64,000 nt of DNA from an uncultured Rubritalea sp. (GTDB taxonomy: Bacteria; Verrucomicrobiota; Verrucomicrobiia; Verrucomicrobiales; Akkermansiaceae). Positions within the stretch are counted from its first letter, which is position 1; each line of letters opens with the position of its first letter. A program made the position numbers and the translations under genes. Below the pieces are notes generated by a model. That model was given only the letters and a program-made list of their open reading frames with translations, did not search any database and was not told the origin of the DNA. Shown one piece after another: positions 14,586 through 61,148 of this stretch. The stretch spans positions 1-64,000 of the forward strand of contig CALAJT010000045.1 in assembly GCA_937923145.1 (NCBI GenBank), written 5' to 3'.

Positions 14586-14621
14586 AATTCTGTCCATTCT
14601 GAAGAATTCTGCATAATTCTG
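14586..14621. repeat. 10-bp-phased heptamer array (AATTCTG, four units)
   Basis: AATTCTG units begin at 14586, 14595 (CATTCTG), 14605 and 14615, spaced 9-10 bases apart. The array is followed by TCTAAAAAT. Its reverse complement (units CAGAATT preceded by TTTTTAGA) closely matches arrays at 38577-38612, 38644-38678 and 61113-61148. It lies in the gap before the restriction-methylation gene. Confidence 0.85.
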
Positions 14622-14693
14622 TCTAAAAATCCCTCTTCAAAAACTCCCTATTTCAGACTCGCCATCACATCATCCATCACTACTATATCCCTG

Positions 14694-17600
14694 ATGTCTG
14701 ACAACTCTGCCGAAGTAGAACAATTTATCACACGATGGTCCAAATCAGGCGCATCTGAGCGAGCTAACTACGCTCTATTTCTATCTGAACTTTGCGATCT
14801 TATCGGAGTCGAACGTCCCGACCCATCAGTCGAAGTGAATCAAGAAAATGCCTACGTGATAGACCGTGCATTCTCCCGCACTGACAAAGATGATCACAAG
14901 AGCACTGTCTATCTAGATCTCTACAAGCGTGGACACTTTGTCCTAGAAACCAAACAGGGTTCCAGTGGCGAAGGCGATAAACTAGGTCACGGTAAACGTG
15001 GTTCCACCGCATGGGATAAGACACTCGATAAAGCCTACAACCAAGCACGCGAATACATCCGCGATATTCCTACCGATGAAGGACGCCCACCCTTCCTCAT
15101 GGTCTGTGATGTAGGACACGTCATCGACATCTACGCTGAGTTCTCCGGCACAGGTGGAGTCTACCTCCGCTATCCTGACCCTAAGAACCATCGCATTTTC
15201 CTAGAAGAACTTCGCGATCCTCAGAAAAGAGATCTACTACGCACCATCTGGACAGATCCTCACAGTCTAGATCCCTCCAAACATGCTGCCAAAGTCACCC
15301 GCGAAGTTGCCGATACTCTAGCCAAGCTCGCAGCATCTTTAGAAAAAGAAGGCCATGATCTTCAGATCATCGCTACTTTTCTGCAACGTCTGCTGTTCTC
15401 GCTCTTTGCTGAGGATGTAGGACTACTGCCAAAGAAATCGTTTGAAGAGCTGCTAGAGAAAGCCTCTAAAACTCCTCAAGGATTCGTCACTCTCATCACT
15501 CAGCTATGGAAAGAAATGGCTACAGGTGCGGAATTCTCCACCGTCATCATGAAGGAAGTCATTCATTTCAATGGCGGACTTTTTGAAAACCCCACTGCCC
15601 TGCCGCTTGCTCAGGAACAGATCGACCTCCTCATCCATGCTGCCAAGCAGGACTGGAAGGAAGTGGAGCCAGCTATTTTTGGAACGCTGTTAGAACGTGC
15701 GCTTGACCCTGCTGAGCGACACAAACTAGGCGCTCATTACACTCCTAGATCCTATGTGGAGAGACTCATAGAACCTACACTCATGGAGCCACTTCGTGAT
15801 CAGTGGCTAGCTGCCAAGACCGCCGCCGCCCTGCTGCACGATAAAGCAGAAGCCGCGCGTCCAGGAAGCAAGGACGCAGAGAAATTTCACCGTCAGGCTC
15901 AGCAAGCTGTCGAGACCTACCACCGCCAGCTCACTGCTACCCGAGTGCTAGATCCAGCCTGTGGATCGGCAAACTTCCTCTACGTAGCACTCGCTCGGAT
16001 GAAGGAACTCGAAGCCGAAGTCCTAGACCTGCTCGCAGAGCTAGGTGGTGATCTCACCCTAGAAATGAGCACCCACATGGTGCGCCCAGATCACTTTCAT
16101 GGACTAGAGATCAATCCCCGAGCCGCTTCCATCGCTCAGCTAGTGCTCTGGATCGGTTACTTCCAATGGCATCACAAAACCACGGGAAATGCCGACACCA
16201 ATGAGCGCCCGCTACTACCCAAGCAGCAAACCATCGAGTGCCGAGACGCCGTGCTAGACTACGATGAAAAGATCCCGCGAAGAGATACAGAGACTGGCGA
16301 ATTCCTCACCATCTGGGACGGTCGCAGCACCAAGACCTCCCCCATCACTGGCAAAGAAATCCCAGACGAATCAAAGCGCACCCCACTCTACGACTTCATT
16401 AATCCAAAACGCACCACTTGGCCAAAAGCAGATTATATTATCGGGAATCCACCGTTTTTGGGATCATCACGCATGAGAGATGGTTTAGGAGACGGTTATA
16501 CAGAAGCCCTTCGACTAGCATGGAAAAAGTTCAAACCAAATTCATGGGACTTCGTCATGTTCTGGTGGCATCAAGCAGCTGAACTGGTCAGGGATAATAA
16601 TGTTAGAAGTTTTGGTTATATCACGACTAACTCAATTCATCAGACATTTAATCGTAGATGCATCGAACCATTCATAACTAATGATAAAAAACCAGTTTCT
16701 ATCATCTTTGCCATACCTGATCATCCATGGGTTGATTCAACAGACGGAGCCGCTGTACGTATAGCGATGACAGTAGTAAAATTTGGAAGTATAGAAGGCA
16801 CTATCAAAGCCGTTGTTACTGAAGATGAGATTGAAAATGGTGAGTCCATGATTAAATTTAAATTGAACCAAGGTCTTATTTTACCGAATTTGAAAATTGG
16901 AGCCAATTTGTCGATGACAAAAGCTCTTGAATCTAATTCTAATTTATCCTTCAGAGGAGTTAGTTTTATAGGTGATGGTTTTGTAATCGATCAGACTCTA
17001 GCTAATCAATTATTATCAAAATCTAACCAGCACATTATTAAACCAACCTTTAACGCACGTGATATAACTCAAACTGCACGTGGTTATTTTGCAGTAGATT
17101 GCTCGGATTTAGAAGAAGGTGAACTAATAGAAAAACATCCTAAGATATATCAGCATCTGACCAACACTGCAAAACCATACCGTAAAGCTAGGTCTCACAC
17201 TAAAGACGGAGCCGCGTATTATAAAAAATGGTGGCAATTTGGTAAGAAACGGTCAGAACTTAGTATCGCTACTAAGTCGTTAAAGCACATTCTAATTACT
17301 CCTATGACGGCTAAACATAGAATGTTCATCAAGTTAGAAAATTATTTTACACCTGATCAAGGACTAATCGTTTTTGCTCTACAGAAGAATAGTTCTTTTA
17401 CTATCCTTTCTTCATACATCCACGTAATTTGGTCTTCATCCCAAGGTGGTCGTATGGGTATGGGTAATGACCTGCGTTATAATAACTCTCGTTGCTTTGA
17501 AACTTTCCCATTCCCAGACCTCCCAGAGGGCGAACTCAAATCTCAGCTCAGTGAACTTGGCGAAAAACTAGACGCCTTCCGCAAAGAACGCCAAGAAGAA

Positions 17601-18284
17601 CATCCTAAGCTCACTCTCACTGGCATGTATAATGTCCTAGAGAAAATGCGTCGTGGCGAAGCCTTTACTGATAAAGACAAGATCATTCACGATCAAGGAC
17701 TCATCACGATCCTGAAGCAAATCCACGATGACATCGACCGCCTGACCTACGAGGCGTATGGCTGGCAAGATCTCTGGAAATGGCAATACGAAGCTACTTG
17801 TGGCTCCTGCTATGATCCAGAAACTAACATTTGTGTACAATACGAACTAGCTCCAGACACCAGTCTCTACGAAGCTACCGCAGAATACCGCGAGAAATAC
17901 GAGCAGATCCTACTCCAACGCCTAGTCGACCTCAACCAAGAGCGAACGGCAGAGGAAGCCCAAGGCAAGATCCGCTACCTCCGCCCCGAGTTCCAAAACC
18001 CTGACTACGAGAAAGAACAACAACAAGCCAAACAAACACAAATCGGTCTCACCGGCACAGAAACCAAGGCAGAGGTGAAAGCCCTAGCCGCTGTCATTTC
18101 CAAAGCAGGCAAGCTCAAATGGCCAAGCACCCTACCGCAACAAGTCAGCGCCCTACACCCCCTAATAGAAGAACTAGGTACCGACCCCACCACCCTCTCT
18201 AAAGCCTTTGGCAGAACTAGTAAAAGTCGCCAAGCCGCGATAGAGCAGATCTTACAGACGCTGGAAACGCTGGGGCAGATATAG
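14694..18284 (+). CDS. MmeI-like type IIG/IIL restriction-methylation enzyme
   Basis: A 1196-residue single-chain enzyme that should both cut DNA and methylate it. The N-terminal PD-(D/E)xK nuclease site is D75...E85-x-K87 ([15 protein letters not shown]), comparable to the MmeI nuclease motif. A helical spacer (about 200-340) leads to the adenine methyltransferase: motif [11 protein letters not shown] (347-356), motif [11 protein letters not shown] (420-429), motif IV NPPF (585-588). A target-recognition domain probably lies at about 650-940, then a helical C-terminus. Base composition and codon use change sharply inside the gene: from about 16434, just before NPPF, to about 17500 the DNA is clearly richer in A and T than the flanks, suggesting the motif IV to recognition-domain segment was exchanged. 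A palindrome TGGCAA...TTGCCA follows the stop. No separate specificity subunit is present, as expected for this class. Confidence 0.85.
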
Positions 18285-18300
18285 TGGCAAAAAGTTGCCA
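18285..18300 (+). repeat. short hairpin after the restriction-methylation gene
   Basis: TGGCAA (18285-18290), loop AAAG, TTGCCA (18295-18300), directly after the TAG stop. No T run follows, so it is a weak terminator at best; it may protect the 3' end of the mRNA. Confidence 0.5.
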
Positions 18301-18368
18301 GATTACAGTTTACCAGTTACCAGTTGTAATATTTATCAGAAATTCTATATTTAGTAACTACGAACGTA

Positions 18369-19367
18369 ATGGACGAAATTAGCACACGGGAACTTTTAAC
18401 CAATATACGCCAGCTCATAGAGCAGGCTCAAGCTCGGGCGGTAAGGTCTGTAAACTTCGAGCGAGTGCTTCTCTACTGAAACATGGGTATGCACATCGTG
18501 GAAGAAGAACAACGAGGTAAAGAACGTGCAGATTACGGGACTTACCTAATTAAATCTCTAGCAAATAGCCTTACTGAAGAGTATGGCTCAGGATATTCTT
18601 TTAGACAACTCAACTTCTGTAGACAGTTTTACACCTTTTTCCCAATTGTGAACGCACTGCGTTCACAATTGAACTGGACGCAATACCGACTGCTTCTCCG
18701 CATAGAAGACCCTGATAAAAGAACTTACTATATTGAGGAATCTTGTAACAATAACTGGAGTGCTCGTCAGCTAGAACGCCAGATCAATAGTCAACTCTAT
18801 GAGCGCCTTTTACTCAGCACAGATAAGGATAGTGTGTTAGCTGTCGCTAAAAAAGAGAGTGTTCCTGAAAGCGCAAAAGACATCATCAAAGATCCTATGG
18901 TTCTTGAGTTCCTAGGGCTAACACCGCACGCTGCATATTATGAGAAAGATCTAGAGCAGGCGCTTATCACTAACATGCAAGCATTCTTGCTGGAATTAGG
19001 GAATGGCTTTTCGTTTGTAGCCCGTCAGCAACGGATTCACCTAGAGGAGGATGACTTCTTTATCGATCTTGTCTTCTACAATCGTTTACTACGCTGTTTC
19101 GTAATCGTTGAAATAAAGACTGAGAAACTAACTCACCAACATTTAGGGCAACTCCAAATGTATGTGAATTATTATGACCGAGTAGAGAAACAACCTGATG
19201 AAAACCCCACCATTGGCATCCTACTCTGTGCTGATAAAAACAACGCAGTAGTAGAGTTCGCCCTACCTCAAGAGAATCAGACGATCTTAGCTAGTCAGTA
19301 TCAGCTCTATTTACCGAAAGAAGACGATATTCTGAAACAAATAACCAAAGCACAGGAGAATAATTAA
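18369..19367 (+). pseudogene. DUF1016 (YhcG-like) PD-(D/E)xK nuclease gene with in-frame TGA at codon 37
   Basis: ATG at 18369 begins MDEISTRELLTNIRQLIEQA, the usual start of DUF1016 proteins, and runs to ...ERVLLY followed by TGA at 18477-18479, then continues in the same frame (NMGMHIVEEEQRGKERADYG...) to 19367. Family members normally have LLYW at this point, so TGG has probably become TGA. The rest is intact: the N-terminal domain (YSFRQLNFCRQFYTFFP) and the C-terminal nuclease with D...E-I-K (DDFFIDLVFYN, VIVEIKTEK). About 296 codons remain open from the ATG at 18483, which would lack the first ~38 residues. Either a recent pseudogene, a shortened but working protein, or a sequencing error. 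DUF1016 genes often accompany restriction systems, as here, 84 bases after the MmeI-like gene. Confidence 0.8.
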
Positions 19368-19485
19368 AATGCCGAAGTCATCTCGTCAATAACGTGAATT
19401 CCTAAGGCTGCATCTCCTCACCGAGGCTTTTCCTTTCTTCTAGTTGCCAAATTCGTGAGTGTGTGCCAATCTGTCTCAGTTGAAT

Positions 19486-20691
19486 ATGAAAGACGGATTT
19501 CTTGATAAACTTATCTCTAGGCTGGATCGTTTCTCACCGAGTGAGGTGCAGAATCTGGTATCGCGCTTAGTGCGGGAGAAAGGGTTTATGGAGAATGTGT
19601 TTGAGTCGCTCCGTGAGGGAGTTTTAATTCTTGATCCTGAGGGTGCTATTACCTTTGCTAACTCTGCTACACATCGGCTATTGGGGATTAATACGACTAA
19701 GAGTATTGGTCAGAAGGTTACTGCGGTAATTCGTGGAATTGATTGGAAATCTTTGGCAAATCCTAACCGGGTGGTAAGTAGAGATATGGAGGTGTTTTAT
19801 CCTGAAAATCGATTTCTCAATTTCTATCTGGCTCCGATCAATGGACAAGTCGGCGATAAAGATGAGCACCTAGGTTATGTAATGCTGATCCATGATGTGA
19901 CCGATAGCATTAAGGAACGCGAAGAGACAATTGAGAGCGAAAAGCTCAATGCACTCACCTTTCTCGCTGCTGGAGTAGCGCATGAAATTGGTAACCCACT
20001 GAACTCGCTAGATATTCATCTACAGCTACTAAATCGTAAGATTCGTAAGAATGATGAGCTGGCTGATGATAGTAAAGCTGATCTACAAAATTTATTAGGA
20101 ACTGCGCAGCAAGAAATCAGGAGGTTAGACAATATTCTAAAACAATTCCTCAACGCGCTACGACCGCAAACGCTAGATCGCGAACCGACAGCTCTTCACA
20201 AGGTGCTGAGAGACACGCTAGAAACTCTGGAGGCTGAGCTTACTGAACGTGAGGTGCAGGTCTCTCTGAATCTGGTAGATAATCTTCCTGTCCTACAGTT
20301 GGACTCAGCACAGATTCAGCAGGCTATTTATAATATCATCCGTAATGCCGCTCAGGCTGTGGCTAGTAAGTCAGGTCGGATATTTATAGAGAGTAGCTTT
20401 AATGATCATGAAGTAGTGCTGAGTATCCGTGATAATGGGAGTGGAATATCTCCAGAAGACATGGGCGCACTTTTCGAGCCCTATCGGACTACTAAGGAAG
20501 CTGGGACTGGTCTTGGGTTACTTATTGTTAGACGCATTCTCCGTGAGCACGGTGGAGAGATAGAGATAGATAGTGAAGACGGAGATGGCACAGTAGTGAG
20601 TCTCTATTTCCCTAGGTTTGAAAAACGTGTCAGATTACTAGCTGAATCAGACAGCCATAAACCTCCAATCGATGTAGAATCTACCAAGTAA
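19486..20691 (+). CDS. PAS-domain sensor histidine kinase (NtrB-like)
   Basis: A soluble histidine kinase of about 401 residues. A GTG at 19459 extends the frame, but ATG at 19486 (MKDGFLDKLIS) looks better. Domains: a PAS sensor (about 45-140, VFESLREGVLILDPEGAITFANSATHRLLG), the dimerisation/phosphoacceptor domain with AGVAHEIGNPLNSL, and the ATPase domain with N box (IIRNAAQAV), DNGSGI and GTGLGLLIVRRI. No membrane helix is seen, so it senses an internal signal. It phosphorylates the response regulator whose gene starts 7 bases downstream. The signal cannot be read from the sequence. Confidence 0.9.
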   Translation: MKDGFLDKLISRLDRFSPSEVQNLVSRLVREKGFMENVFESLREGVLILDPEGAITFANSATHRLLGINTTKSIGQKVTAVIRGIDWKSLANPNRVVSRDMEVFYPENRFLNFYLAPINGQVGDKDEHLGYVMLIHDVTDSIKEREETIESEKLNALTFLAAGVAHEIGNPLNSLDIHLQLLNRKIRKNDELADDSKADLQNLLGTAQQEIRRLDNILKQFLNALRPQTLDREPTALHKVLRDTLETLEAELTEREVQVSLNLVDNLPVLQLDSAQIQQAIYNIIRNAAQAVASKSGRIFIESSFNDHEVVLSIRDNGSGISPEDMGALFEPYRTTKEAGTGLGLLIVRRILREHGGEIEIDSEDGDGTVVSLYFPRFEKRVRLLAESDSHKPPIDVESTK

Positions 20692-20698
20692 TAAAATC

Positions 20699-22093
20699 AT
20701 GGATGCAACAGTTTTAATAGTAGATGATGAAAAGCCGACCCGAGATGGTCTGCGTATGGCGCTAGAGGATGAGTTTGAGTGCTACGTGGCATCAGACATC
20801 CGCGAAGCACAGAATATTCTTAAGTCAGAGAAGGTCGATGTAATGCTCACTGATCTAAGAATGGGTAGTGATAACGGTATGGACTTACTAGATCATGCTT
20901 TAGCCATGAAGCACTCACCTATAGCGATCATGATGACTGCTTATGGAAGTGTAGACACGGCAGTAGAGGCAATGCGCAGAGGTGCGTGGCATTTCGTCAC
21001 TAAACCACTAAATCTAGATGAGGTGGAACTCCTGATCAAACGTGCTCTCAGAGGTAGAGTGATAGAGAGTAAGAACATCGCCCTAGAGCAGGAAAATCAA
21101 GAGCTACGCAAGAAATCTGGTAAGCCAGCCCATGGACTAGACCGCCTAATAGGAAAATCCCCTGCAATGGCGCAAATTCATAGCATGCTCACACAAATCG
21201 CTCCGACTCGTGCCACTGTATTAGTCCAGGGCGAAAGTGGAACGGGTAAGGAACTCGTAGCAGGTGCACTCCATGCCCTTAGTGGTAGACCGGCGAATAA
21301 GCTTGTAACTGTGAACTGCGCAGCTCTTTCTCCTCAGTTGTTAGAAAGTGAGTTATTCGGTCATGAGAAAGGTGCATTCACTGGTGCGACTCAGCGTAGG
21401 ATCGGTAGATTCGAGCAGGCAGATGGTGGCACTCTTTTCCTCGATGAAATCGGTGAGATCGATTCGGCAACTCAGGTAAAATTACTCCGTGCCTTGAGTG
21501 AAAAAACGGTTGAGCGTGTCGGCTCTAATAACTCCATCAAGATTGACGTCCGTGTGATCGCAGCTACTAACAAAAACTTACGGAAACTGGTAGCAAAAGG
21601 AGAGTTCCGTGAGGACTTATTCTTTCGTTTAAATGTCGTTCAGATTGACATGCCTACCTTGCGAGAAAGATCAGAAGATGTGATCCTGCTAGCCAATGCT
21701 TTTCTAAAAGAATTTGCCCATGAAAACTCGAAACCTCTAAAACCTCTGACTGAAGAGGCAGCACAACTCCTACAAACTTATGAATGGCCAGGAAACGTCA
21801 GAGAACTCAGAACTGCGATAGAGCACGGAGTGGTGATGAGTAATCAAGACGTTATAAATTGTGAGCATTTACCGCAATTCCTGAACAAAATCGCTGATTT
21901 AGATACAAATTCACAAATAGTTTCCTCAGAATTGAAAAACACTCTTGCCGAAAGCTCCAATTTCAACTTGAGTGCTCTGGAGAAAGCGACAATAATGAGC
22001 GCGCTTCTGCACACTGACAATAATCGCACTGCTGCGGCAGAATTATTAGGCATCAGCCGTCGAACTCTACAACGCAAAATCAAAGAGACCTAA
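20699..22093 (+). CDS. sigma-54-dependent response regulator (NtrC-like)
   Basis: A 464-residue activator. Receiver domain at about 1-120 with phosphoacceptor D52 (VMLTDLRMG) and K102. AAA+ domain with Walker A GESGTGKE (178-185), the sigma-54 contact loop GAFTGA (225-230) and GGTLFLDEIGE as Walker B. The C-terminal Fis-type helix-turn-helix (about 420-462) ends with NRTAAAELLGISRRTLQRKI. It should bind upstream sites and drive sigma-54 promoters when phosphorylated by the adjoining kinase. I found no convincing -24/-12 promoter close by, so its targets are probably elsewhere. Confidence 0.94.
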   Translation: MDATVLIVDDEKPTRDGLRMALEDEFECYVASDIREAQNILKSEKVDVMLTDLRMGSDNGMDLLDHALAMKHSPIAIMMTAYGSVDTAVEAMRRGAWHFVTKPLNLDEVELLIKRALRGRVIESKNIALEQENQELRKKSGKPAHGLDRLIGKSPAMAQIHSMLTQIAPTRATVLVQGESGTGKELVAGALHALSGRPANKLVTVNCAALSPQLLESELFGHEKGAFTGATQRRIGRFEQADGGTLFLDEIGEIDSATQVKLLRALSEKTVERVGSNNSIKIDVRVIAATNKNLRKLVAKGEFREDLFFRLNVVQIDMPTLRERSEDVILLANAFLKEFAHENSKPLKPLTEEAAQLLQTYEWPGNVRELRTAIEHGVVMSNQDVINCEHLPQFLNKIADLDTNSQIVSSELKNTLAESSNFNLSALEKATIMSALLHTDNNRTAAAELLGISRRTLQRKIKET

Positions 22094-22135
22094 AAGACTA
22101 ATAATACACGCTTTTAAGCTCATCAACTCACCTAT

Positions 22136-35678: not shown

Positions 35679-35745
35679 TTGTTGTATTTAGTTTATGGTT
35701 AATTGAATTAGGATTGAGTATGGAAGTTAGTGAATTTATTTACCG

Positions 35746-35875
35746 CTGATTACGCAGATTTTAGACTGATTTAGTTTTAATGTTTTTGGACTGCATGAGC
35801 GCAAATTAGATTTATTTCTATTCAAAATTTTAAGAATGCTTCGCTAAGAAATCTGCGGTAATCAGTGTAAATCAG
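35746..35875. repeat. inverted pair of 10-bp-phased repeats (CTGATT/CAGATT class)
   Basis: Left arm: CTGATT-like units at 35746, 35755 and 35766. Right arm, inverted: AATCTG at 35850, AATCAG at 35860 and 35870, exactly 10 bases apart. ACCGCTGATT (35742-35751) is complementary to AATCAGCGGT (35870-35879). The left arm lacks one internal unit relative to the right. Sequences of the ACCGCTGATTTAC...CGCAGATT type are, as I recall, widespread in bacterial intergenic regions; their role is unknown to me. Confidence 0.85.
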
Positions 35876-35914
35876 CGGTTATTTTTTGATCTATCTGACA
35901 TTCTATTCTTTTAG

Positions 35915-38499: not shown

Positions 38500-38576
38500 G
38501 CGGCGGATGATAATGAAAGCGGTAGAAAAGAGAAGTGTTTATTGATGTGATGACTTAGAGATCATTCTATTTTAGA

Positions 38577-38678
38577 CAGAATTAACAAAATTCTTCAGAA
38601 TTATGCAGAATTTTTTCTTTAAAGATGAATTCATCTATCCAGTAATTTTGTTAATTCTGCAAAATTCTGATAATTCAG
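38577..38678. repeat. inverted pair of 10-bp-phased heptamer arrays (CAGAATT, 4 + 4 units)
   Basis: CAGAATT-like units start at 38577, 38586 (CAAAATT), 38596 and 38606. Inverted units start at 38644 (AATTTTG), 38653, 38663 and 38672 (AATTCAG). The outer ends, TAGACAGAATTA and TAATTCAGTCTA, are complementary apart from one base. About 30 bases separate the arms. It lies between gpmI and mnmE and belongs to the same family as 14586-14621 and 61113-61148. Confidence 0.9.
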
Positions 38679-38697
38679 TCTAGCGCCGCAGGCAAAG

Positions 38698-42428: not shown

Positions 42429-42920
42429 TGGTATGAGAATTTATTATTTTGGGTGTTTTGTAAATGAGTTATTGAGCGAATCTGAGAATGAGTGATTATT
42501 TTCTGTGTAACTTAAACCACAGGCGCTAGATTACTATCCTCTCTCCTCTGTGCCTTCAGCACAGTCTTGGTTTGATAAAACACTCCATGGGATGAATCCC
42601 ATGGCTGTGAAACCTTGCTCCCTTCAGGAGCGGGAATTTCCTGAAAGGAAAATGGTTTCAAAGCGAATGGCTTCAGCCATGGAATAATTACAATAAGAAT
42701 TAACCGTGCTGAAGGCACGGAGAAAAATAGAGACGTAATTTAACGAATTTTACCAGCTTTGAACTGATCCATCATCATTCCATTTAATAAGTCACTTTAT
42801 AACGCAGCGTCTCACCTGATAACCACAACTAATCTACTATCGCCAAGTTCAACTATTTAATCCCATGTATCTATTTGGAGTAGTGAGTTTGATTTCTGTA
42901 TGCAACTAGTGACCCCTAGA
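42429..42920. other. intergenic region with hairpin cluster
   Basis: Between the delta'-like gene and the CPXCG gene. The first ~300 bases are packed with short palindromes (see separate entry). The rest (about 42725-42920) is AT-rich and holds nothing I can name. A minus-strand open frame at 42512-42718 is made of the palindromes and is not a gene. Confidence 0.6.
42548..42720. repeat. cluster of six short REP-like palindromes
   Basis: Hairpins at 42548-42564 (CTGTGC-CTTCA-GCACAG), 42585-42604 (CCATGGGAT-GA-ATCCCATGG), 42617-42631 (GCTCC-CTTCA-GGAGC), 42637-42651 (TTTCC-TGAAA-GGAAA), 42667-42680 (ATGGC-TTCA-GCCAT) and 42704-42720 (CCGTGC-TGAAG-GCACGG). The outermost pair are near reverse complements, so the cluster is itself inverted. 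Most loops are CTTCA or its complement TGAAG. Confidence 0.9.
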
Positions 42921-52747: not shown

Positions 52748-54013
52748 TTACTCTACAGGGATAGCCTTAGGTGGCTTCGGCTCTATAGGTGCTGATGGCT
52801 CCAGATTATCCTCTACAGGGATTGCTCTAGGCGGAACAGGTAATTCTGATTCAGAGGGTGGATCTACTACCACTGCTTTTGGTGGTATGATTGGCATCTC
52901 AGGAAGAATGTCATTTCTATCAGACGCTATAGCAGGTGAATTTGGATTTCTGTTAGGTTTAATAATTCTTGGTTTCTTAGCCTGCTCTGGTGGTGGAAGC
53001 TTACGCATTTTGATTTCTACCCTGCGGTTGAGAGCCTGGGCTTTTTGATCACCTGTTTTTACGATTACCTGAGTTTTACCAAAGCCTCTGACGTAAAGCT
53101 TATCTGGACTTATTTTCATCGAATCTACTAACCAAGTTTTCACAGCTTGAGCACGTGCTATAGAGAGTAGTCGATTAGATTCATCATCACCCACTAGGTC
53201 TGTATGTCCTTCTATCCAGCAATACATTTCAGGATTCTTATCAATCAAGAGAACGACTTTCATCATGCTATTTTTAGCGCTTTCTCTTAAAGTTGCCTTA
53301 CCGAATTCGTAGAGTAAATCAGAGCCGATCATTCCTTTCGCTTTGTTCAGATCAGATTGTGAAAGGCGTGACATTTCTGCAAGTGGAGTAAATCCCTTGA
53401 TCACTCCATTTTCAGTGTCTCCCCCTGCCCCTTTGGCTAATTCTTTACTAAATTTATCAGGGTCAAACGTATCTGCATTTTGAATCCCAGCATCAATAGT
53501 GATTTGACCTCGCTCAGGCTTAATAAAATCTTCTGTAGAACCTAAATTTGCAATGTCAGCATTGAGATCTGCACCCGCTGTGAGTTCTTCTGCGGTGGAA
53601 TATGCATCACCTTTTATAGCAGGCATTTCTATTTCGACACTCATCTCAGGCTCATCAATAGTTGGTGAAAAATCTACTTCTAAATCAGTGGGTGCTTCTT
53701 CCAGCATTTCTAACACTTCTAGTATTTCACTAGGGTCTTTAGGGGGAACGATCACTTGATCATCTTGGATTTCTTCTAAATAGTGGCGATCATCCACACT
53801 TCTAACTACTACTTGATCAGTTGCTAATTCTTCCATTTCATCATCACCGCCAAAGTAAACTGGCATCTGATTCATCGCGAACAACACTAGCCCATGACTA
53901 ATTATCGCCAAAACAATGGCAATTCCGACCCATTTAGTCAAATTATCATCCTTCTTAGCCTTAGAAACAGACTTAGACTGAACATTTTTCCAACTGTATT
54001 GTGTCCCTGCCAT
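52748..54013 (-). CDS. inner-membrane-anchored protein with OmpA-like peptidoglycan-binding domain
   Basis: A 421-residue protein. A single membrane helix at about 29-49 (WVGIAIVLAIISHGLVLFAM) follows a Lys-rich cytosolic start, as in TonB or MotB. A long acidic, Pro/Glu-rich stretch (about 60-190) spans the periplasm. The OmpA-like domain is at about 225-340 (GKATLRES, WIEGHTDLVGDDESNRLLSIARA, RGFGKTQ, NRRVEIKM) with the Asp and Arg that bind peptidoglycan diaminopimelate. After the domain comes a Pro-rich tail with repeated PPRAIPVE / PPKAIPVE, unusual for OmpA proteins. It may brace the inner membrane to the wall or act with TonB-like partners. Confidence 0.8.
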   Translation of the reverse strand: MAGTQYSWKNVQSKSVSKAKKDDNLTKWVGIAIVLAIISHGLVLFAMNQMPVYFGGDDEMEELATDQVVVRSVDDRHYLEEIQDDQVIVPPKDPSEILEVLEMLEEAPTDLEVDFSPTIDEPEMSVEIEMPAIKGDAYSTAEELTAGADLNADIANLGSTEDFIKPERGQITIDAGIQNADTFDPDKFSKELAKGAGGDTENGVIKGFTPLAEMSRLSQSDLNKAKGMIGSDLLYEFGKATLRESAKNSMMKVVLLIDKNPEMYCWIEGHTDLVGDDESNRLLSIARAQAVKTWLVDSMKISPDKLYVRGFGKTQVIVKTGDQKAQALNRRVEIKMRKLPPPEQAKKPRIIKPNRNPNSPAIASDRNDILPEMPIIPPKAVVVDPPSESELPVPPRAIPVEDNLEPSAPIEPKPPKAIPVE

Positions 54014-54126
54014 AGTAAATAGTGAATAGATAAGACGGTAGCTGAATGCTAAGTAAGCCTCTCTAGATGCACTATACTTAGCATTTCATGGCGATTTATC
54101 AACTAATAATCCTCCGCCCTGTAAAC

Positions 54127-54170
54127 TAAAAAACTGGTACTACTAGAGTTAAGCCTCTAGTAGTACCAGT
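54127..54170 (-). terminator. strong terminator of rpiB-glyA
   Basis: On the minus strand ACTGGTACTACTAGAG (54170-54155), loop GCTTAA, CTCTAGTAGTACCAGT (54148-54133), then TTTTTTAG. A perfect 16-bp stem about 25 bases after the gene's stop. Confidence 0.95.
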
Positions 54171-54195
54171 TAAAATATTAAATAGCTCTGTATAT

Positions 54196-55869
54196 CTAGC
54201 GAGGAAGTGGGAATGCTCTATTGAAGGCAAACACTTCTTGCTGAATCTCAGCTAGCTTAGTATCGTCTGCTCGATTTTCTAGAGCGGCATGAATGAAGTC
54301 TGCTACTTGAGCTATGTCTTCCTCCTTCATACCACGGGTAGTAACAGCTGGAGTTCCTAGACGGATTCCACTAGGCTTGAATGGGCTAGCAGTATCGAAT
54401 GGTATAGAGTTCTTGTTAATCGTGATGCCTACTTTATCAAGAGCATCAGATGCAATAGCTCCGTCCATTCCAGATGGTCTTAGGTCAACGAGCATGAGGT
54501 GATTATCAGTGCCGCCTGATAGAATACTGTATCCGTGCTCAGTGAGTCTAGCTGCGAGAGCCTGTGCGTTTTTAACGACTTGCTCTGAGTAACCTTTAAA
54601 ATCTGGTCTAAGCGCTTCACCGAAGCAAACTGCCTTCGCTGCTATCACGTGCATGAGTGGCCCACCCTGAATTCCTGGGAATACCTGAGAATCGATTTTC
54701 TTAGCGTGTTCAGATTTGCAAAGAATGATGCCTCCACGTGGTCCACGAAGTGACTTGTGCGTAGTAGAAGTTACGAAGTCTGCATGTGGCACTGGGTTCG
54801 GGTGAACTCCAGCCGCTACAAGACCCGCGATGTGTGCCATGTCCACGAAGAGGTAAGCTCCGACTTTCTTGGCAATCTTACCCATACGCTCGAAATCGAT
54901 TTCTCTAGGATAAGCACTCGCACCTGAGGTTATAAGTGCAGGCTTAAGTTCTACCGCCATTTTTTCAAGAGCATCATAGTCGATGCGCATATCTTCTTCG
55001 CTCACACCGTAGTGAGTCACGTCGTAGAATTTACCTGAGAAGTTTGCTTTGTGTCCGTGAGTGAGGTGTCCACCGTGTGCCAGATCCATTGTGAGAATCT
55101 TATCGCCCGGCTTGAGCACTGAGAAGTAAACCGCTGTGTTTGCCTGTGAGCCAGAGTGTGGCTGAACATTAGCATGATCTGCTCCGAAGAGTTCCTTGAG
55201 ACGATCAATCGCGATCTGCTCAACAACGTCCACGTGTTCACACCCACCATACCAACGACGACCTGGATAACCTTCTGCATACTTATTAGTAAGAAGGCTA
55301 CCTTGAGCTTCCATTACTGCTGGGCTAGTAAAGTTTTCTGATGCGATTAGCTCGATGTGGCTACGCTGTCTTCGACCTTCAGCATCAACTGCTGCGAAAA
55401 CGTCTGGATCACCGATAGCGAGTGGGCTACCAGATGCTTTTCGAACACGAGCTTCGTGTCTTCCACCTTCGAATTCTGTGTGAAGGAAAGCATCAACGAC
55501 TGATGCCATATCTGCCTCCGCTACATGATTTTGCCCTAAGCATAAAACGTTAGAATCATTATGTTCTCTAGAAACTCTAGCCTCATCAGCAGAACGCACG
55601 TTGACCGCTCGAATGCCGACGAAACGGTTCGCCGCCATGCAGACACCTACGCCTGATGTGCATACTAGAATGCCTGCATCGTAAGTTCCATTAGAAACTT
55701 CGATGGCTACTTCATTAGCGTAGTCAGCGTAATCTACAGAGTCACTAGAGTTGGTGCCATAGTCAGTCACCTCATGCCCTTGTTCTGTAAGGTATCTAAC
55801 GATTGAGTCTTTTAATTGAACGCCGCCGTGGTCGGCTCCTAATGCTATACGGTATGTTGATTCACTCAT
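54196..55869 (-). CDS. fused ribose-5-phosphate isomerase B and serine hydroxymethyltransferase
   Basis: A 557-residue bifunctional protein. Residues about 1-145 are Rpi[37 protein letters not shown] (catalytic Cys) and [12 protein letters not shown]. It interconverts ribose-5-P and ribulose-5-P. Residues about 150-557 are Gly[40 protein letters not shown], and the PLP Lys in [12 protein letters not shown]. It makes glycine and methylene-THF from serine. No stop or frameshift separates them; the linker is about 10-20 residues. A strong terminator follows, and the next gene upstream is fabD. Both halves look active. Confidence 0.95.
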
Positions 55870-56011
55870 AATTTGTTATGTGCCTATGGCACGATATTGG
55901 TAAATAGTCAAATATCAATAGGATTGAAAAGAGAACGAAAGCTATAAATCTACTAAGAAAAAGCATCTCACTACAGTCATTAATATCAACCCATTTAAAT
56001 TTGTCATTAGC

Positions 56012-56938
56012 TTAACTAAGAGTTTCTACAGCGGCATCAAGCGATTCGATGTCTTCTATGCTAATTACAGTAGCCTCCTTGTTGATTCGCTTCATCATTC
56101 CCGCAATAAGTTTACCAGGTCCTAGCTCGATAAATGTAGTGTGACCTTCAGCAATGAGAGCTTCGATACATTCTACCCATCTCACAGAGCCTGTTACTTG
56201 GTTCTCTAAAGTCTCACGGATTTCGTCAGCTCCTCTTACTATTCCACCTTTGAAATTACTTGCCACTGGGATGCGTGGATTCAGAACGTGAGTTCCTAGT
56301 AGGACACCAGATAACTTATCCTGTGCAGATTGCATAAGACGTGAGTGATAAGCTCCTGCTACATTCAGCTTCTTAGCCATTTTACAGCCTGCTTCTTTTG
56401 CATTTACGATCGCTTTGTCTACTCCCTCTTCGCTTCCAGACAATACTATTTGCCCTGGAGCATTATAGTTTGCAACATCCACGTCAGATTCAGCGGCGAG
56501 TGCTTCTACTGCTTCAGGAGTTCCACCGATCATAGCCGCCATTGCGCCTTGAGTTGCATTACAAGCTTCCTCCATAAACTGACCACGAAGCTCGACTACT
56601 TTTAAACCGTCTGCGAATGAGAATGTCCCAGCTGCGGCATGGGCAGTGAACTCACCTAGTGAAAGTCCTGCTGCCGCTACCGGCTTAAATTCTGGTAACC
56701 GCTCTCTTAATACTGCGAGACAGGCTAGTCCATGAAGGTAGAGTGCTGGCTGGCAACGTGAGGTTTTGATTAGTTCCTCATCCGGTCCATTAAACATGAT
56801 TTCACTGAGTGAAAACCCGAGTGCTTCATCCGCTTGATCGAAAAGTGATTTTGCTACGTCATATTGCTCGACGAGATCCTTGCCCATGCCCACTTTTTGT
56901 GCGCCCTGCCCTGAGAATAAAATAACAGCGTTGCTCAT
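56012..56938 (-). CDS. fabD: malonyl-CoA-acyl carrier protein transacylase
   Basis: A 308-residue enzyme that loads malonate on ACP for fatty acid synthesis. LFSGQGAQ at the start, the catalytic Ser in GLSLGEF (S about 92), and the His in GAYHSRLMQ (about 198). KLNVAGAYHS and NFKGGIV are normal for FabD. Located alone, with other fab genes outside the window. Confidence 0.95.
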   Translation of the reverse strand: MSNAVILFSGQGAQKVGMGKDLVEQYDVAKSLFDQADEALGFSLSEIMFNGPDEELIKTSRCQPALYLHGLACLAVLRERLPEFKPVAAAGLSLGEFTAHAAAGTFSFADGLKVVELRGQFMEEACNATQGAMAAMIGGTPEAVEALAAESDVDVANYNAPGQIVLSGSEEGVDKAIVNAKEAGCKMAKKLNVAGAYHSRLMQSAQDKLSGVLLGTHVLNPRIPVASNFKGGIVRGADEIRETLENQVTGSVRWVECIEALIAEGHTTFIELGPGKLIAGMMKRINKEATVISIEDIESLDAAVETLS

Positions 56939-56986
56939 ATTCTATATTTCTAACTGTCAGTAGACATACTTCACAGAAAAAAATGA

Positions 56987-57004
56987 AAAAAGTATATACT
57001 TTTT
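56987..57004. promoter_or_regulatory. 18-bp perfect palindrome between fabD and tRNA-Ser
   Basis: AAAAAGTATATACTTTTT is its own reverse complement. It lies about 50 bases upstream of fabD (minus) and about 70 bases upstream of the tRNA-Ser (plus), so it could be an operator or promoter element for either. It is AT-only except for one G and one C, so chance cannot be excluded. Confidence 0.4.
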
Positions 57005-57071
57005 CTTGCAATTAATCTCAGTTTACGCTTTCTTCTGCCCGCAGCCAAAAAGCTCGCAACACTTTCTAAGC

Positions 57072-57159
57072 GGAGGGGTGGCAGAGTGGTTTAATGCACC
57101 GGTCTTGAAAACCGACGTGGGGAGACTCACCGTGAGTTCGAATCTCACCCCCTCTGCCA
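57072..57159 (+). tRNA. tRNA-Ser (anticodon TGA)
   Basis: Acceptor GGAGGGG pairs with CCCCTCT (one G-T); anticodon loop CTTGAAA gives TGA; a long variable arm (GTGGGGAGACTCAC) as expected for tRNA-Ser; T arm GTGAG-TTCGAAT-CTCAC; CCA encoded at 57157-57159. Its 3' end is repeated 206 bases downstream. Confidence 0.95.
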
Positions 57160-57374
57160 TTTATTTTAGATAAAGCCTTCAGGCATAAACCACCTGGAGG
57201 CTTTTTCACGTCTAGACCTCAAGGTGAGATGAGAACGCAGTTCGATTGCCCCGACCAGATGAGCGCAGCGAAACTGGTAAATCCCCCTCCCATGTCGACG
57301 GAGGAGGAGGCATGCCAATTTGCAAAGCCGTGAGCGCAGCGAAGGCAATCTCACCCCCTCTGCCATTTATTTTA
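57141..57374. repeat. 28-bp direct repeat of the tRNA-Ser 3' end (att-like)
   Basis: The 28 bases at 57141-57168 (from the T arm through CCA and eight downstream bases) recur exactly at 57347-57374. The sequence after each copy is also similar (a CCTTCAGG...CCTGNAG hairpin then a T run), so the duplication extended through the terminator. Between them lie about 180 bases with two GAGCGCAGCGAA hairpins (57261-57272 and 57333-57343 region). This is the shape left by integration at a tRNA gene, but no integrase or cargo remains. Confidence 0.9.
57175..57206 (+). terminator. terminator of tRNA-Ser
   Basis: GCCTTCAGG...CCTGGAGGC (57175-57183 with 57193-57201) is a stem with a G-T pair, followed by TTTTT. 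The duplicated copy is at 57383-57413 (CTTCAGG...CCTGAAG then eight T). Confidence 0.85.
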
Positions 57375-57382
57375 AGAATTAA

Positions 57383-57414
57383 CCTTCAGGTCTAAACCGC
57401 CTGAAGTTTTTTTT
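57383..57414 (+). terminator. second (duplicated) terminator after the tRNA-Ser region
   Basis: CTTCAGG (57384-57390) with CCTGAAG (57400-57406), then eight T. It is related to the first terminator and lies just after the second copy of the tRNA 3' end. Confidence 0.85.
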
Positions 57415-57437
57415 GTGCTTAGAAGTAAAAGCTTAAC

Positions 57438-57544
57438 CACGAATCTACACTAATTATCACGAATGTGGTGCCCGATGGAACCCAGCACGATGGATTCATT
57501 TTGACCACGGAAGGCAACAACTCAAACATTCGTGATAATTCGTG
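57438..57544. repeat. inverted pair of 10-bp-phased repeats (CACGAAT class)
   Basis: CACGAAT at 57438, CACTAAT at 57448 and CACGAAT at 57458, exactly 10 bases apart; inverted copies ATTCGTG at 57528 and 57538, also 10 apart. AATTATCACGAATGT (57452-57466) is exactly complementary to 57526-57540. Same geometry as the CAGAATT and CTGATT arrays but a different heptamer. Confidence 0.9.
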
Positions 57545-57566
57545 ATAAAAAAGTTTGATCGACCCA

Positions 57567-57601
57567 AGCAAAAAGCCACGCTCATTGCTGAACATGGCTT
57601 T
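57567..57601 (-). terminator. likely terminator of trxB
   Basis: On the minus strand AAAGCCA (57601-57595) pairs with TGGCTTT (57578-57572) around a 16-base loop, then TTG. It starts 24 bases after the trxB stop. Confidence 0.65.
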
Positions 57602-57624
57602 GAAATTTATAGTTATCTCAGAAA

Positions 57625-58587
57625 TTAATCTTCGAGAGTTGCCAGGTAATGCTCAGCTTCTAGTGAAGCAGCACAGCCTTGTCCGGCTGCTGTTATTCCT
57701 TGGCGGTAGACTGTGTCGGCTACGTCACCTGCGGCGAATATGCCTGGTGTTTTAGTCGCTGTCTTACCCGGGATCTGAAGGATGTATCCAGAGTCGTCTA
57801 AGTCTACGAGTTCCTTGCTGATGAAGTCAGTGTTCGGATTATGACCGATCGCCATAAAGACGCCTTCTACTTCTAGCTCAGATTCTGAGCCATCGACTGT
57901 ACTCTTCAGCTTCACCGCTTTGATACGCTTATTGTCATCAAGGATGTAGTCGATCACTCCGGAGTTCCAGACTGGCTCGATTTTCTCATTAGCTAGAGCA
58001 CGCGCAGCCATAATCTTAGATGCTCGAAGTTCTTCGCGACGATGAATGAGGTAGACTTTACTAGCGAATTTCGTAAGGAATGTTGCCTCCTCCGCAGCTG
58101 AATCGCCACCACCGATAACACATACTGGCACATCACGATAAAATGCTCCATCACAGGTAGCACATGCTGTTAGACCTGCTCCAGATTTGACCAGCTCTTC
58201 CTCACCTGGGAGTCCCAGGTATCTAGCAGATGCTCCTGATGCGATGATTACCGTCTTGGTTTGATAGACTTTCACATCGTCAGGTGAGTAGACATTATGC
58301 GTATGCACAGCGAATGTCTTGTCTAAGTTTTGCTCTATGTTTGTAACAGCGATACCGTTTTCTACACGAGTGCCGAAGCGCTCTGCCTGAGCCTGCATTT
58401 TCTGCATGAGCTCAGGACCCATGATTCCATCTGGAAATCCTGGGAAGTTCTCTACATCTGTAGTAGTAGTAAGCTGGCCTCCTGGCTGTGAACCAGTGAG
58501 GATGAGTGGTGAAAGATCTGCTCGGGCAGAATAAATAGCGGCAGTGTAGCCAGCAGGCCCGGTGCCGATGATAATGACGTTTTCCAT
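57625..58587 (-). CDS. trxB: thioredoxin reductase
   Basis: About 320 residues from the ATG at 58587 ([17 protein letters not shown]); a GTG or ATG five codons upstream is less likely. The FAD loop is [14 protein letters not shown], redox cysteines are in [14 protein letters not shown] loop [10 protein letters not shown], and the C-terminal FAD motif is [10 protein letters not shown]. It recycles thioredoxin with NADPH. Standard low-Mr type. Confidence 0.96.
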
Positions 58588-58647
58588 GTTGTTATGAGTC
58601 ACTTAAGACTGAGTTATTTCAAGTTTTTTATCGAATCCAGTCTAGAT

Positions 58648-59214
58648 TTAAACTGTCATTACTTCCTTCTCTTTAGCTACTGACTCTTCTTCCACTTTTT
58701 TACCAAAAGTATCTGTGAGTTCCTGCACTTGAACTTCGTAATCGTGGAGAGAGTCTTCTGTGAGAACATTACTATCCTTCATTTTCTTACCCATATCCAT
58801 ACCGTCTTTTCTGCATCCACGGACGCGGATTTTGATGTCTTCACTGATCGTTCTGACACGCTTCACCATCTCCTGACGTCGCTCCTCGTTGAGCTCAGGT
58901 ATTGGTAATCGGAGGAGTTTACCTTCGTTCACTGGATTAAATCCTAGTTGAGCTTCGCGGATACCACGGTCGATATCATCTGCAGTGCTAGGATCGTGTG
59001 GCTGGATGACGATCTGTCTTGGCTCTGGTGTAGAAATAATCGCTAGATCACGAAGTTTCATCTTAGTGCCATACGCTTTCACATCTACCATGACGTTCTC
59101 GACGAGTGATGGTGATGCTTTTCCTGTGCGGACTGAGGAGAATTCTGTAGACATGTGCTCCACGGCTGACTCCATCGCCATCTCTATTTCTGCGAGTGCT
59201 TCTTTAGGTTCCAT
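58648..59214 (-). CDS. frr: ribosome recycling factor
   Basis: A 188-residue protein. RTGKASPSLVENV, LRDLAIISTPEPRQIVIQPHDPS and KLLRLPIPELNEERRQEMVKRV (in parts) are RRF signatures. With EF-G it splits post-termination ribosomes. Directly downstream of pyrH, the common pyrH-frr pair. Confidence 0.97.
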   Translation of the reverse strand: MEPKEALAEIEMAMESAVEHMSTEFSSVRTGKASPSLVENVMVDVKAYGTKMKLRDLAIISTPEPRQIVIQPHDPSTADDIDRGIREAQLGFNPVNEGKLLRLPIPELNEERRQEMVKRVRTISEDIKIRVRGCRKDGMDMGKKMKDSNVLTEDSLHDYEVQVQELTDTFGKKVEEESVAKEKEVMTV

Positions 59215-59242
59215 AATGTGTTTCTATTGATTGTTAAAAAGA

Positions 59243-59971
59243 TTATTTATTGGTAACGATTGTACCGATTTTCTCACCGAGGATTGCCTTGGTGATGTTG
59301 CCATGGACGTTGAGATCGAATACCATGATCGGGATATTGTTGTCCATACAAAGTGAGAATGCGGTTGAGTCCATTACCCCGAGTTGGTCGTTGATGCAGG
59401 TTTCAAAGTCTACTGTTTCGTAGCGTACTGCGTCAGAATTTTTCTTAGGATCTGAACAGTAAACACCGTCTACCATAGTTGCCTTGAGAATACAGTTCGC
59501 TCCCATCTCACTCGCGCGGAGTGCGGCTGTGGTGTCTGTAGAGAAGAATGGACTTCCTGTTCCAGCTGCGAAAATCACGACTGTTCCCTGGCTAAGTTGT
59601 CGTCTGGCTTTTCTACGGATAAATGGTTCAGCGACGTTTTTCATCTCGATCGCTGACTGCACTATACAAGGGACTTTTTCAGCCTCGATAGCGCTCTGCA
59701 CGGCTAGAGCATTCATCACTGTCGCCATCATGCCAACATAGTCTGCTGTAGCTCTATCCATGCCACGAGCCGATGCACTAGCACCTCTCCAGAAGTTTCC
59801 GCCACCTACTACGATAGCTATTTCTACTCCTGCCTCGTGAGCTGCTTTGATCTCTTTAGCGATCCGCTCTACTATCTCCGGGGAGATATTATCTTGGCTA
59901 CCTACCTCGCGCAGAGCTTCACCGCTCAGCTTGAGAACTACTCGTTTAAATGGGATCTCAGTATTGCTCAT
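59243..59971 (-). CDS. pyrH: uridylate kinase
   Basis: 242 residues from the ATG at 59971 (MSNTEIPFKRVVLKLSGEAL); the upstream extension of 16 codons is unlikely. Amino-acid-kinase fold with VVLKLSGEAL, VVGGGNFWRG, and the ATP region with TDTTAALRA. It phosphorylates UMP to UDP. frr follows 28 bases on. Confidence 0.96.
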   Translation of the reverse strand: MSNTEIPFKRVVLKLSGEALREVGSQDNISPEIVERIAKEIKAAHEAGVEIAIVVGGGNFWRGASASARGMDRATADYVGMMATVMNALAVQSAIEAEKVPCIVQSAIEMKNVAEPFIRRKARRQLSQGTVVIFAAGTGSPFFSTDTTAALRASEMGANCILKATMVDGVYCSDPKKNSDAVRYETVDFETCINDQLGVMDSTAFSLCMDNNIPIMVFDLNVHGNITKAILGEKIGTIVTNK

Positions 59972-60155
59972 AATCGTCTCCCCATAGAAAACAATTACCC
60001 GGCTGGATTGGAAAGACAAATCGCCCGAATATGAAAAAAATCTACTTCACTTGATCCTTCTGCTGCCACTTACTTAATAAATCAACTAGTTCTTTAGCTA
60101 AATTGATAGGGACCTTACAGGTTTTGCGTCTGTAGTAGTAGGCTAGCTTGCGAGT

Positions 60156-60347
60156 TTAGGAGTTTACGATTGGTTTATTCTCTTTCTTCGCCTTGGCAAA
60201 TGCTTCCTCAGCCCACGGATACCAACTCACCAGATTTTCCGAATGTTCCTGGAGGTAAGGTGATGGTTTTTTAGCCAGGCAATCCTCTACTACTTTCTTT
60301 TCCTGAGCGACTCTGCTGAAACTGGAAATTACGCCAATGCCGAACAT
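60156..60347 (-). pseudogene. N-terminal remnant of a DUF255 thioredoxin-domain protein
   Basis: 63 codons. [20 protein letters not shown] and [14 protein letters not shown] match the start of DUF255/SSP411 proteins (usually [44 protein letters not shown]). It stops right after KPIVNS, before the CHWCH cysteines; the ~100 in-frame bases after the stop (LAYYYRRKTCKVPINL) do not resume the family. No signal peptide or export motif is evident. It is a decayed or truncated gene in the gap between pyrH and the YggS-type gene. Confidence 0.6.
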
Positions 60348-60404
60348 GGTGCTGCTCTACTTTTTAGTAAAAGCATGGATATTAAAGGTCCGATATGATC
60401 TTTT

Positions 60405-61079
60405 CTAGCGATTACCAAAGATACTAGTTCCTACCCTAACATAAGTAGCACCTTCTTCAATAGCCACCTCAAAGTCTCCGCTCATTCCCATACTTAGATG
60501 AGGAAGCTTGATGTTAAGCTCCTGCTCTAGCTGATCCCTCAGTTCTCTCACTTTAGTAAACCAATGCCTAGCTTGCTCAGGCTCCGACACTGCTGGAGGA
60601 ATACACATTAGACCTATTATTGATAAGCTTTTAAGATCTAGCAGTTCCGTGAATACTTCCACCAATTGATTAACATCAAAACCACCCTTCGCCTCCTCTT
60701 TACCGATATTAACCTGGAGTAAAACTTTAGGCCTTATGCCCATATCAGCCGCGACATTATTGGCATATCTAGCGAGCTTGAGACTATCAATACTGTGGAT
60801 TACATGGAACAGTCCAAAGACTTTACGGACTTTATTTTTCTGCAAACCACCGATGTAATGCCATTCTAGATTTGGCGACATTGCGGGGATTTTCTCTTGT
60901 CCTTCTTGAAGTTTATTTTCGCCAAGAATTTGCTGACCAGCATCAACTGCTAACTGTATATGATCTACTGGCCATGTTTTACTAACTGCTATTAATTCGA
61001 CAGAATCACTACGCCCACCACGTTCACAAGCCGCGCTAATACGGCTCTTAATTTCGGCTAGGTTTTCAGCAACGCTCAT
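60405..61079 (-). CDS. YggS/PROSC-type PLP-binding protein
   Basis: A 224-residue single-domain PLP protein. The Schiff-base Lys is in LIAVSKTWP (K34), the rest of the barrel in ILGENKLQEG, WHYIGGLQKNK and the C-terminal SMGMSGDFEVAIEEGATYVRVG. These proteins buffer PLP and keep amino- and keto-acid balance; no catalytic activity is known. Length is typical. Confidence 0.95.
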   Translation of the reverse strand: MSVAENLAEIKSRISAACERGGRSDSVELIAVSKTWPVDHIQLAVDAGQQILGENKLQEGQEKIPAMSPNLEWHYIGGLQKNKVRKVFGLFHVIHSIDSLKLARYANNVAADMGIRPKVLLQVNIGKEEAKGGFDVNQLVEVFTELLDLKSLSIIGLMCIPPAVSEPEQARHWFTKVRELRDQLEQELNIKLPHLSMGMSGDFEVAIEEGATYVRVGTSIFGNR

Positions 61080-61112
61080 GTGAATATAGATTTAAGGTAG
61101 AAAATTTTTAGA

Positions 61113-61148
61113 CAGAATTAGACAGAATTAGACAGAATTAGCAGAATT
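61113..61148. repeat. 10-bp-phased heptamer array (CAGAATT, four units)
   Basis: CAGAATT at 61113, 61123, 61133 and 61142; the first three sit in a perfect 10-base tandem repeat GACAGAATTA. Preceded by TTTTTA. It lies in the 74-base gap between hemB and the YggS-type gene and belongs to the same family as 14586-14621 and 38577-38678. Confidence 0.95.

Follow-up and report, generated by a model that had tools for sequence, protein, structure and literature searches.

The sequence analysed here, hereafter the window, is a stretch of 64,000 nucleotides from an uncultured Rubritalea sp. (Verrucomicrobiota, Akkermansiaceae; contig CALAJT010000045.1 of GenBank assembly GCA_937923145.1, positions 1 to 64,000 of the forward strand). 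Between its genes lie short arrays of a heptamer repeated at steps of 9-11 bp, some of them single and some arranged as inverted pairs. We found that arrays of this kind bracket genes of the GxxExxY family in many Verrucomicrobiota. The arrays of the window are likely orphans of this gene-bounding family, that is, gene-less arm pairs and single arms. The link to GxxExxY (PF13366, PDDEXK_3), which cannot be seen from the window alone, entered this work as a lead and was tested here.

A preliminary description of the window had listed these arrays and placed them in the gaps between genes. Direct reading locates all of them where they had been reported, and a generic scan, defined as a chain of at least three heptamers with at most one mismatch to the seed and steps of 8-11, recovers those marked accordingly in the table. 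The same scan gives three weak 3-unit matches, at 16887, 21723 and 62461. All five places where arrays occur are between listed open reading frames (ORFs) of at least 100 aa, or between a tRNA and an ORF. Arrays of at least four units number three in the window and none in each of 100 block-shuffled windows, with 38644-38678 scoring as three units under this rule. Arrays of three units are not significant by themselves, because block-shuffled windows yield 0-6 of them each (20 trials). In the genome to which the window belongs (G000; 2.70 Mb, 53 contigs), CAGAATTNNNCAGAATT has 17 matches with at most one mismatch, compared with 1 for the reversed-pattern control. The window arrays are real, intergenic and beyond chance. 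When folded as single-stranded DNA and compared with shuffles, the three inverted pairs reach z=-4.6 (38576/38644), z=-2.6 (35745/35850) and z=-4.3 (57438/57528), and the single arms fold more weakly (z=-1.4 at 14586-14622; z=-2.2 at 61107-61151).

The own genome holds three GxxExxY genes over the PF13366 cut-off, L018, L019 and L020. Each is flanked within tens of bases by inverted arrays with a word of its own, namely CAGAATT at L019, CTGATT at L020 and CACGGAA/CACTGAA at L018. The TIGR04256 cut-off is exceeded by all six proteins scanned, including these three. At E<=0.001 and counting partial matches, GxxExxY members were detected in 37 of the 60 genomes from the taxonomic family and in 164 of the 288 from a phylum sample. 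We collected 182 Verrucomicrobiota gene loci, comprising the three own loci, 59 returned by the family and phylum searches and a further 120 chosen from the same lists in approximately their order, without truncated rows or rows near contig ends; the set consists mostly of high-scoring open frames and is not a random draw. A heptamer-chain score of at least 3.1 was reached by 128 of the 182 genes, as against 1 of 176 flank pairs taken 300 bp outward and none of 182 shuffled pairs. In other loci of Verrucomicrobiota, 60 of 80 mnmE loci, this score was reached by none of 59 usable mnmE genes and, among mechanical ORFs of 100-170 aa, by 1 of 1246; no GxxExxY gene was found among the 80 mnmE loci (1.37 Mb). 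Moreover, an exact inverted match of at least 10 nt joins the two 150-nt flanks in 64% of 140 genes (those usable among the first 142, two being dropped at contig ends), the corresponding values being 5.8% for 2800 mismatched pairs, 4.3% for 138 far flanks and 17% for 140 same-strand comparisons. For the chain score, a stricter control that pairs flanks of different genes has its 95th percentile at 3.89, exceeded by 58% of 142 genes; this control is inflated because genes share words. At the level of sequence, arrays and GxxExxY genes are associated.

These loci also reveal the anatomy of the arrays. The unit is a 7-bp word, C-R-C-N-R-A-D, with steps of 8-10 bp and a mode of 9. Over the 128 gene-bracketing arrays, steps of 8, 9, 10 and 11 bp occur 106, 252, 91 and 15 times, and steps of 17-21 that skip a unit 14 times. 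In place of the steps of 9-10 bp reported earlier, the window has steps of 9-11 bp, and around genes the commonest step is 9 bp. We considered a helical repeat of about 10.5 bp as the organising rule and rejected it on the same mode. The argument that a 10-bp step sets every unit on the same face of the helix falls with it: with a 9-bp step, each unit is turned by about 50 degrees around the helix relative to the one before, and the letters outside the heptamer are little conserved (unit-to-unit identity.31-.45 outside and.79-.98 inside, in standard-orientation genes among the first 101). CAGAATT, which had been set apart as a separate class, is (G)ACAGAA + TT, that is, the same unit read two bases out of register; CTGATT is CGCTGAT, and CACGAAT fits C-R-C-N-R-A-D exactly, so that CAGAATT, CTGATT/CAGATT and CACGAAT form one family. 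The earlier interpretation thus survives in part: an intergenic array family and a repeated protein-binding site both fit, and the helical-face and bending argument does not carry over.

Three units are present in both arms of 77 of the 128 genes. Among genes with at least three units per arm, the step series is identical in both arms in 70 of 88, compared with 15 expected. By a score of at least 2.5, at least three units and fit to the motif, 120 of the 182 genes could be typed, and they carry 31 distinct main heptamers with base frequencies of C.83, A/G.94, C.95, N, A/G.99, A.90 and A/G/T.97. From outer heptamer to outer heptamer, the median length is 465 bp (interquartile range 444-491, n=101).

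The GxxExxY product is a PD-(D/E)XK protein of about 130 aa (PF13366/TIGR04256) that resembles Cas4 and lambda exonuclease. G30, E33, Y36, D72 and K84 are invariant in 46 sequences, and Q96 and Y100 are conserved in at least 90% of them. A structure model built from three sequences has pLDDT 87.7 and pTM 0.81 (pLDDT 39.6 for a single-sequence AlphaFold model). Its best Foldseek match in the PDB is 4ic1, SSO0001, a Cas4 (E 0.036, probability 0.97, query TM 0.50), followed by lambda exonuclease. One query returned no solved relative by sequence at E<=10, and two queries no PHROG match. These data indicate that GxxExxY carries a predicted PD-(D/E)XK, RecB-like active site, with a weak fold match.

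Changes in the protein and in the heptamer appear to be coupled. Among 60 disjoint nearest pairs, the first aligned residue changes in all four pairs in which base 5 of the heptamer changes and in 1 of the 38 in which it does not, the remaining 18 pairs being gapped at this residue. A permutation over all columns and five heptamer positions gave p=0.006. A larger, less balanced pairing points in the same direction (28/33 vs 9/32), and of 47 genes with T at the first aligned residue, 46 have G at base 5 (first 101 genes). This pattern is suggestive of covariation between the N-terminal residue and base 5, with four informative pairs carrying the strict test. A code linking base 7 to protein columns 19, 87, 91 and 103 (mutual-information z 23-30) was rejected, because most close pairs differing at base 7 keep those residues; the columns mark clades. 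Base 1 and column 73 had the highest raw z, which rests on two differing pairs, and were dropped from the permutation by the variance rule.

The comparison of related genomes provides a case of presence and absence. Between nuoG and nuoH (22 loci compared), the gene and its arms are present in G000 and G058; in the congeners G022 and G050, only 27 and 31 nt separate the two nuo genes. At the same site, G034 has gene-less arms and G052 a GxxExxY gene whose word, judged by eye, is CAGGATT-like (L143; score 2.4, below threshold); therefore, species can differ in the word that they carry at a given site. Among the 12 relatives listed, no shared neighbour (empty site) was found for the mnmE-pgm site.

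Orphan arrays tend to occur together with a gene of the same word. After removal of the genes' own flanks, at least three CAGAATT pair matches were found in 5 of the 6 genomes that have a gene of CAGAATT type and in 3 of the 54 that lack one (Fisher p=6e-5). Overlapping matches within one array count more than once here, and among the six genes, L159 and L208 were assigned by an earlier motif and stand outside the typed set. The reversed-pattern control gave 0 in all 60 genomes. For CGCAGAG, arrays were found in 2 of 3 genomes with the gene and 2 of 57 without (p=0.01), and for CACGAAT in 2 of 4 and 3 of 56 (p=0.03; 3 control matches), the nine CACGAAT matches of G048 falling in two arrays. 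Orphans of the matching word thus seem more frequent where the gene is present, clearly for CAGAATT and weakly for CGCAGAG and CACGAAT. The congener G009 has a CACGAAT gene and 106 doublets. One of its regions (C2:280001-460000, L403-L411) contains 199 mechanical ORFs, 133 on the minus strand and many of them small, and CACGAAT arrays of at least three units (33 on the plus and 11 on the minus strand) beside cas9 and cas1 genes. These arrays are single arms in a repeat-rich stretch. Of the 199 ORFs, 10 were scanned and none of these is an integrase; a superintegron is a possible reading of the stretch.

Table 1. Heptamer arrays and associated features. Positions are those of the window; L numbers denote loci elsewhere. 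MITE, miniature inverted-repeat transposable element.
Feature	Position or locus	Strand	Basis
CAGAATT-type single arm, four units (one variant), steps 9/10/10	14586..14622	-	reading, generic scan
Gene-less hairpin, left arm: CGCTGAT, CGCAGAT, GACTGAT	35745..35771	+	reading, scan, folding
Gene-less hairpin, right arm (partner of 35745..35771)	35850..35879	-	reading, folding
CAGAATT hairpin, left arm, between phosphoglycerate mutase and mnmE genes	38576..38612	+	reading, scan, folding
CAGAATT hairpin, right arm (partner of 38576..38612)	38644..38678	-	reading, scan, folding
GCCTGCGGCGCT, adjoining a heptamer array	38682..38693	-	exact occurrences in genome
CACGAAT-type left arm, three units, the middle one CACTAAT	57438..57464	+	reading, scan, folding
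Right arm, two CACGAAT units (partner of 57438..57464)	57528..57544	-	reading, folding
CAGAATT single arm, four units, steps 10/10/9	61107..61151	+	reading, scan
MITE copies holding CGCTGAT arrays (own genome)	L033, L035, L037, L040, L043		
PF05635 loci with arrays	L283, L299, L412		score
PF05635 loci with arrays	L413, L414, L415, L417		by eye

All seven exact occurrences of GCCTGCGGCGCT in the genome adjoin a heptamer array, of one class or another, and this sequence is possibly a longer outer end or a preferred target. Some other features of the window may be recorded here. An MmeI-like restriction-modification protein of 1196 aa is encoded at 14694-18284, directly adjoining the array at 14586. 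The 28 nt at 57141-57168, which span the 3' end of a tRNA-Ser gene (57072-57159), have an exact copy 206 bp downstream, at 57347-57374, and the pair resembles an attachment-site scar. In addition, a 20-nt inverted repeat, 90% complementary and with arms 137 nt apart, lies at 42546-42565 and 42703-42722.

We consider it fairly probable that the arrays serve as terminal repeats to a minimal selfish element with a single gene, that of GxxExxY, a RecB/Cas4-like PD-(D/E)XK protein that would read its own heptamer. We favour this explanation because arrays bracket the genes, the main heptamer differs between genes, both arms share the same step order, the nuoG-nuoH site is filled or empty in different species, and orphans of a word are more frequent where its gene is present (clearly so for CAGAATT). 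The protein would recognise its heptamers in the duplex or in a hairpin strand and act there as a nuclease, and the element would be moved or copied in consequence. Gene-less arm pairs and single arms, such as those of the window, would be relics or non-autonomous copies, and some copies travel as passengers within a MITE.

Several observations weigh against this explanation. At the threshold of 3.1, 54 of the 182 genes have no two-sided array, and no Foldseek match in the PDB reaches E 0.001. No clear target-site duplication was found around gene-bearing elements: the longest shared direct word outside the arms averages 4.88, compared with 4.54 in mismatched pairs, and the inverted one 4.99 compared with 4.62 (n=101). 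Arrays and genes of one word do not always coincide, since arrays for which no matching gene was found occur in G012, G059 and G007 (CAGAATT), G039 (CGCAGAG) and G000, G058 and G027 (CACGAAT), and a gene with no further arrays in G024 (CGCAGAG) and G044 (CACGAAT). Because the genomes compared are relatives of one another, the counts of genomes given above are not independent, and the reversed control for CGCAGAG also matches (24 vs 77 real). Among the genes found in plasmid records, only three of eight pass the array score of 3.1 (Prevotella, Bernardetia and Bacteroides, all Bacteroidota). Some four-helix-bundle genes (23S_rRNA_IVP, PF05635), a different family, have similar inverted arrays. 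Finally, a gene-less family of CGCTGAT arrays spreads in the own genome inside a MITE with ends of its own. This MITE is about 240-260 bp long, and its end, CAGGGCGATCAAGCTAGGG, has 22 matches within 3 mismatches compared with 1 for the control. Direct duplications of 9-12 bp are seen by eye in four of five copies compared, and the loop text beside the right arm at 35850 resembles, by eye, the loop of the own-genome CTGATT-class MITE copies.

The MITE leads to a rather unlikely alternative, namely that arrays and gene are passengers spread by host transposons, MITEs or recombination, with the protein doing another job such as DNA repair or defence. The end matches around the CGCTGAT arrays speak for it; however, the arms of L019 and L020 lie within tens of bases of both nuo neighbours with no MITE end visible. 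Gene and arms also seem tied to each other, given that each gene has a main word of its own and that its two arms match in step order. It also seems unlikely that the arrays matter as RNA stems and not as DNA sites, as in an element resembling the intervening sequences (IVS) of rRNA. There, the arms would pair in the operon transcript and leave the gene looped out, and cleavage of the stem by host RNase III or by the protein would allow the insertion to be tolerated. A simple stem would not require a clean heptamer to be repeated, 10 of the 120 typed genes have arrays in the opposite orientation, and single arms exist. On the other hand, both neighbouring genes lie on the strand of the GxxExxY gene at 94 of 174 genes, the arms are inverted and fold (DNA parameters used), and the other family with such arrays is 23S_rRNA_IVP.

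We see little reason to regard the arrays as operators, that is, regulatory sites of GxxExxY or of a host factor, some of them perhaps bending DNA. This proposal would explain why the upstream arm lies just 5' of the start codon in many loci (by eye), but leaves the downstream inverted arm, the gene-less pairs elsewhere and the 9-bp mode unexplained. Very improbable, too, is a Chi-like self-marking, in which the nuclease would be stopped or diverted at the arrays and host DNA would thereby be protected or labelled. The fold predicted here is RecB/Cas4-like, and the protein that reads Chi has a RecB-family fold; however, most genomes examined have few arrays, and the arms form inverted pairs with the gene between them.

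The selfish-element reading may extend beyond Verrucomicrobiota. In a tblastn search with the L019 protein, the gene was found in 8 of 72,556 plasmid records, from five phyla. The five plasmid-record genes below threshold score 1.6-2.55 and have, by eye, one-sided, same-strand or single units. The same single query had no match in 50,697 phage records, and five scans of a viral collection gave only three contigs with the gene, L363 and L395 with arrays and L396 without. Regarding the PF05635 genes, inverted ATTGGGA or AGGAGAT arrays with 8-9 bp steps were found in two of eight scored rows of the fetched loci. In cyanobacterial plasmid loci, arrays were found at one of six by score and at further ones by eye, L413 and L414 being near-identical. 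The words flanking PF05635 genes (ATTGGGA, AGGAGAT, TCAGGAG and GGGAAAA) recur at steps of about 8-10 bp. These genes possibly represent another class of such elements; ends of this type are either favoured by a host process or the outcome of convergence between two protein families. The broadest form of our proposal envisages a new class of selfish elements with a Cas4-like mini-nuclease that reads its own heptamer arrays, a readable residue-to-base code and CRCNRAD repeats, seeded through Verrucomicrobiota and at least Bacteroidota, with the four-helix-bundle proteins as a parallel second class that may spread in the same way. We give this broadest form slightly less than an even chance of being correct.

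Repeats such as CGCAAAG, CACGAAT and CACAGAT are frequent in the intergenic regions of many bacteria, and we know of no owner for them. A single protein family with at least 31 natural words as their owner would make the function of such repeats directly testable and, if true, would provide a set of small nucleases whose DNA words differ and can be predicted. It also advises caution, in that such repeats should not be read as gene regulation by themselves. Searches of open PMC full text gave no paper that connects GxxExxY with repeats in its title or displayed abstract; most subscription journals and preprints lie outside these searches, and priority is not certain. The family name itself occurs once each in PMC8934634 and PMC12085832, and PF13366 in PMC9756366. 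Intergenic TAACTGA direct repeats have been described in Beggiatoaceae, Cyanobacteria and Bacteroidetes and proposed as post-transcriptional regulators, with no transfer mechanism evident according to the abstract (PMC4679880). They are likewise heptamers in short intergenic arrays, but TAACTGA does not fit C-R-C-N-R-A-D.

A published pipeline reported a GxxExxY domain where another tool called cas4 (PMC8934634). GxxExxY resembles Cas4 and lambda exonuclease in predicted fold and active-site residues, and differs from them in its near absence from the phage and viral sets searched. The elements share terminal inverted repeats and gene-less copies with MITEs and insertion sequences; around the gene-bearing form, no clear target-site duplication was found, the small excess of shared direct words being seen for inverted words too, and to our knowledge GxxExxY is not a known transposase family. 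In contrast to homing endonucleases, the insertion does not interrupt the candidate sites, which in 128 of 182 loci flank the gene intact on either side. The 23S rRNA IVS genes (PF05635) are similar as small genes at nuo intergenic sites, some with inverted arrays of short words, but their protein family is unrelated and their words include ATTGGGA and AGGAGAT. A further parallel is provided by the repetitive extragenic palindromes (REP/REPIN), short intergenic inverted repeats in many copies that bracket the gene of RAYT, a Y1 HUH protein. As in that system, the many short inverted repeats described here bracket a gene and also occur alone; however, their cognate protein would be a PF13366/TIGR04256 PD-(D/E)XK protein and not a Y1 (HUH) transposase, and the repeat is a heptamer array where REP is one tagged palindrome.

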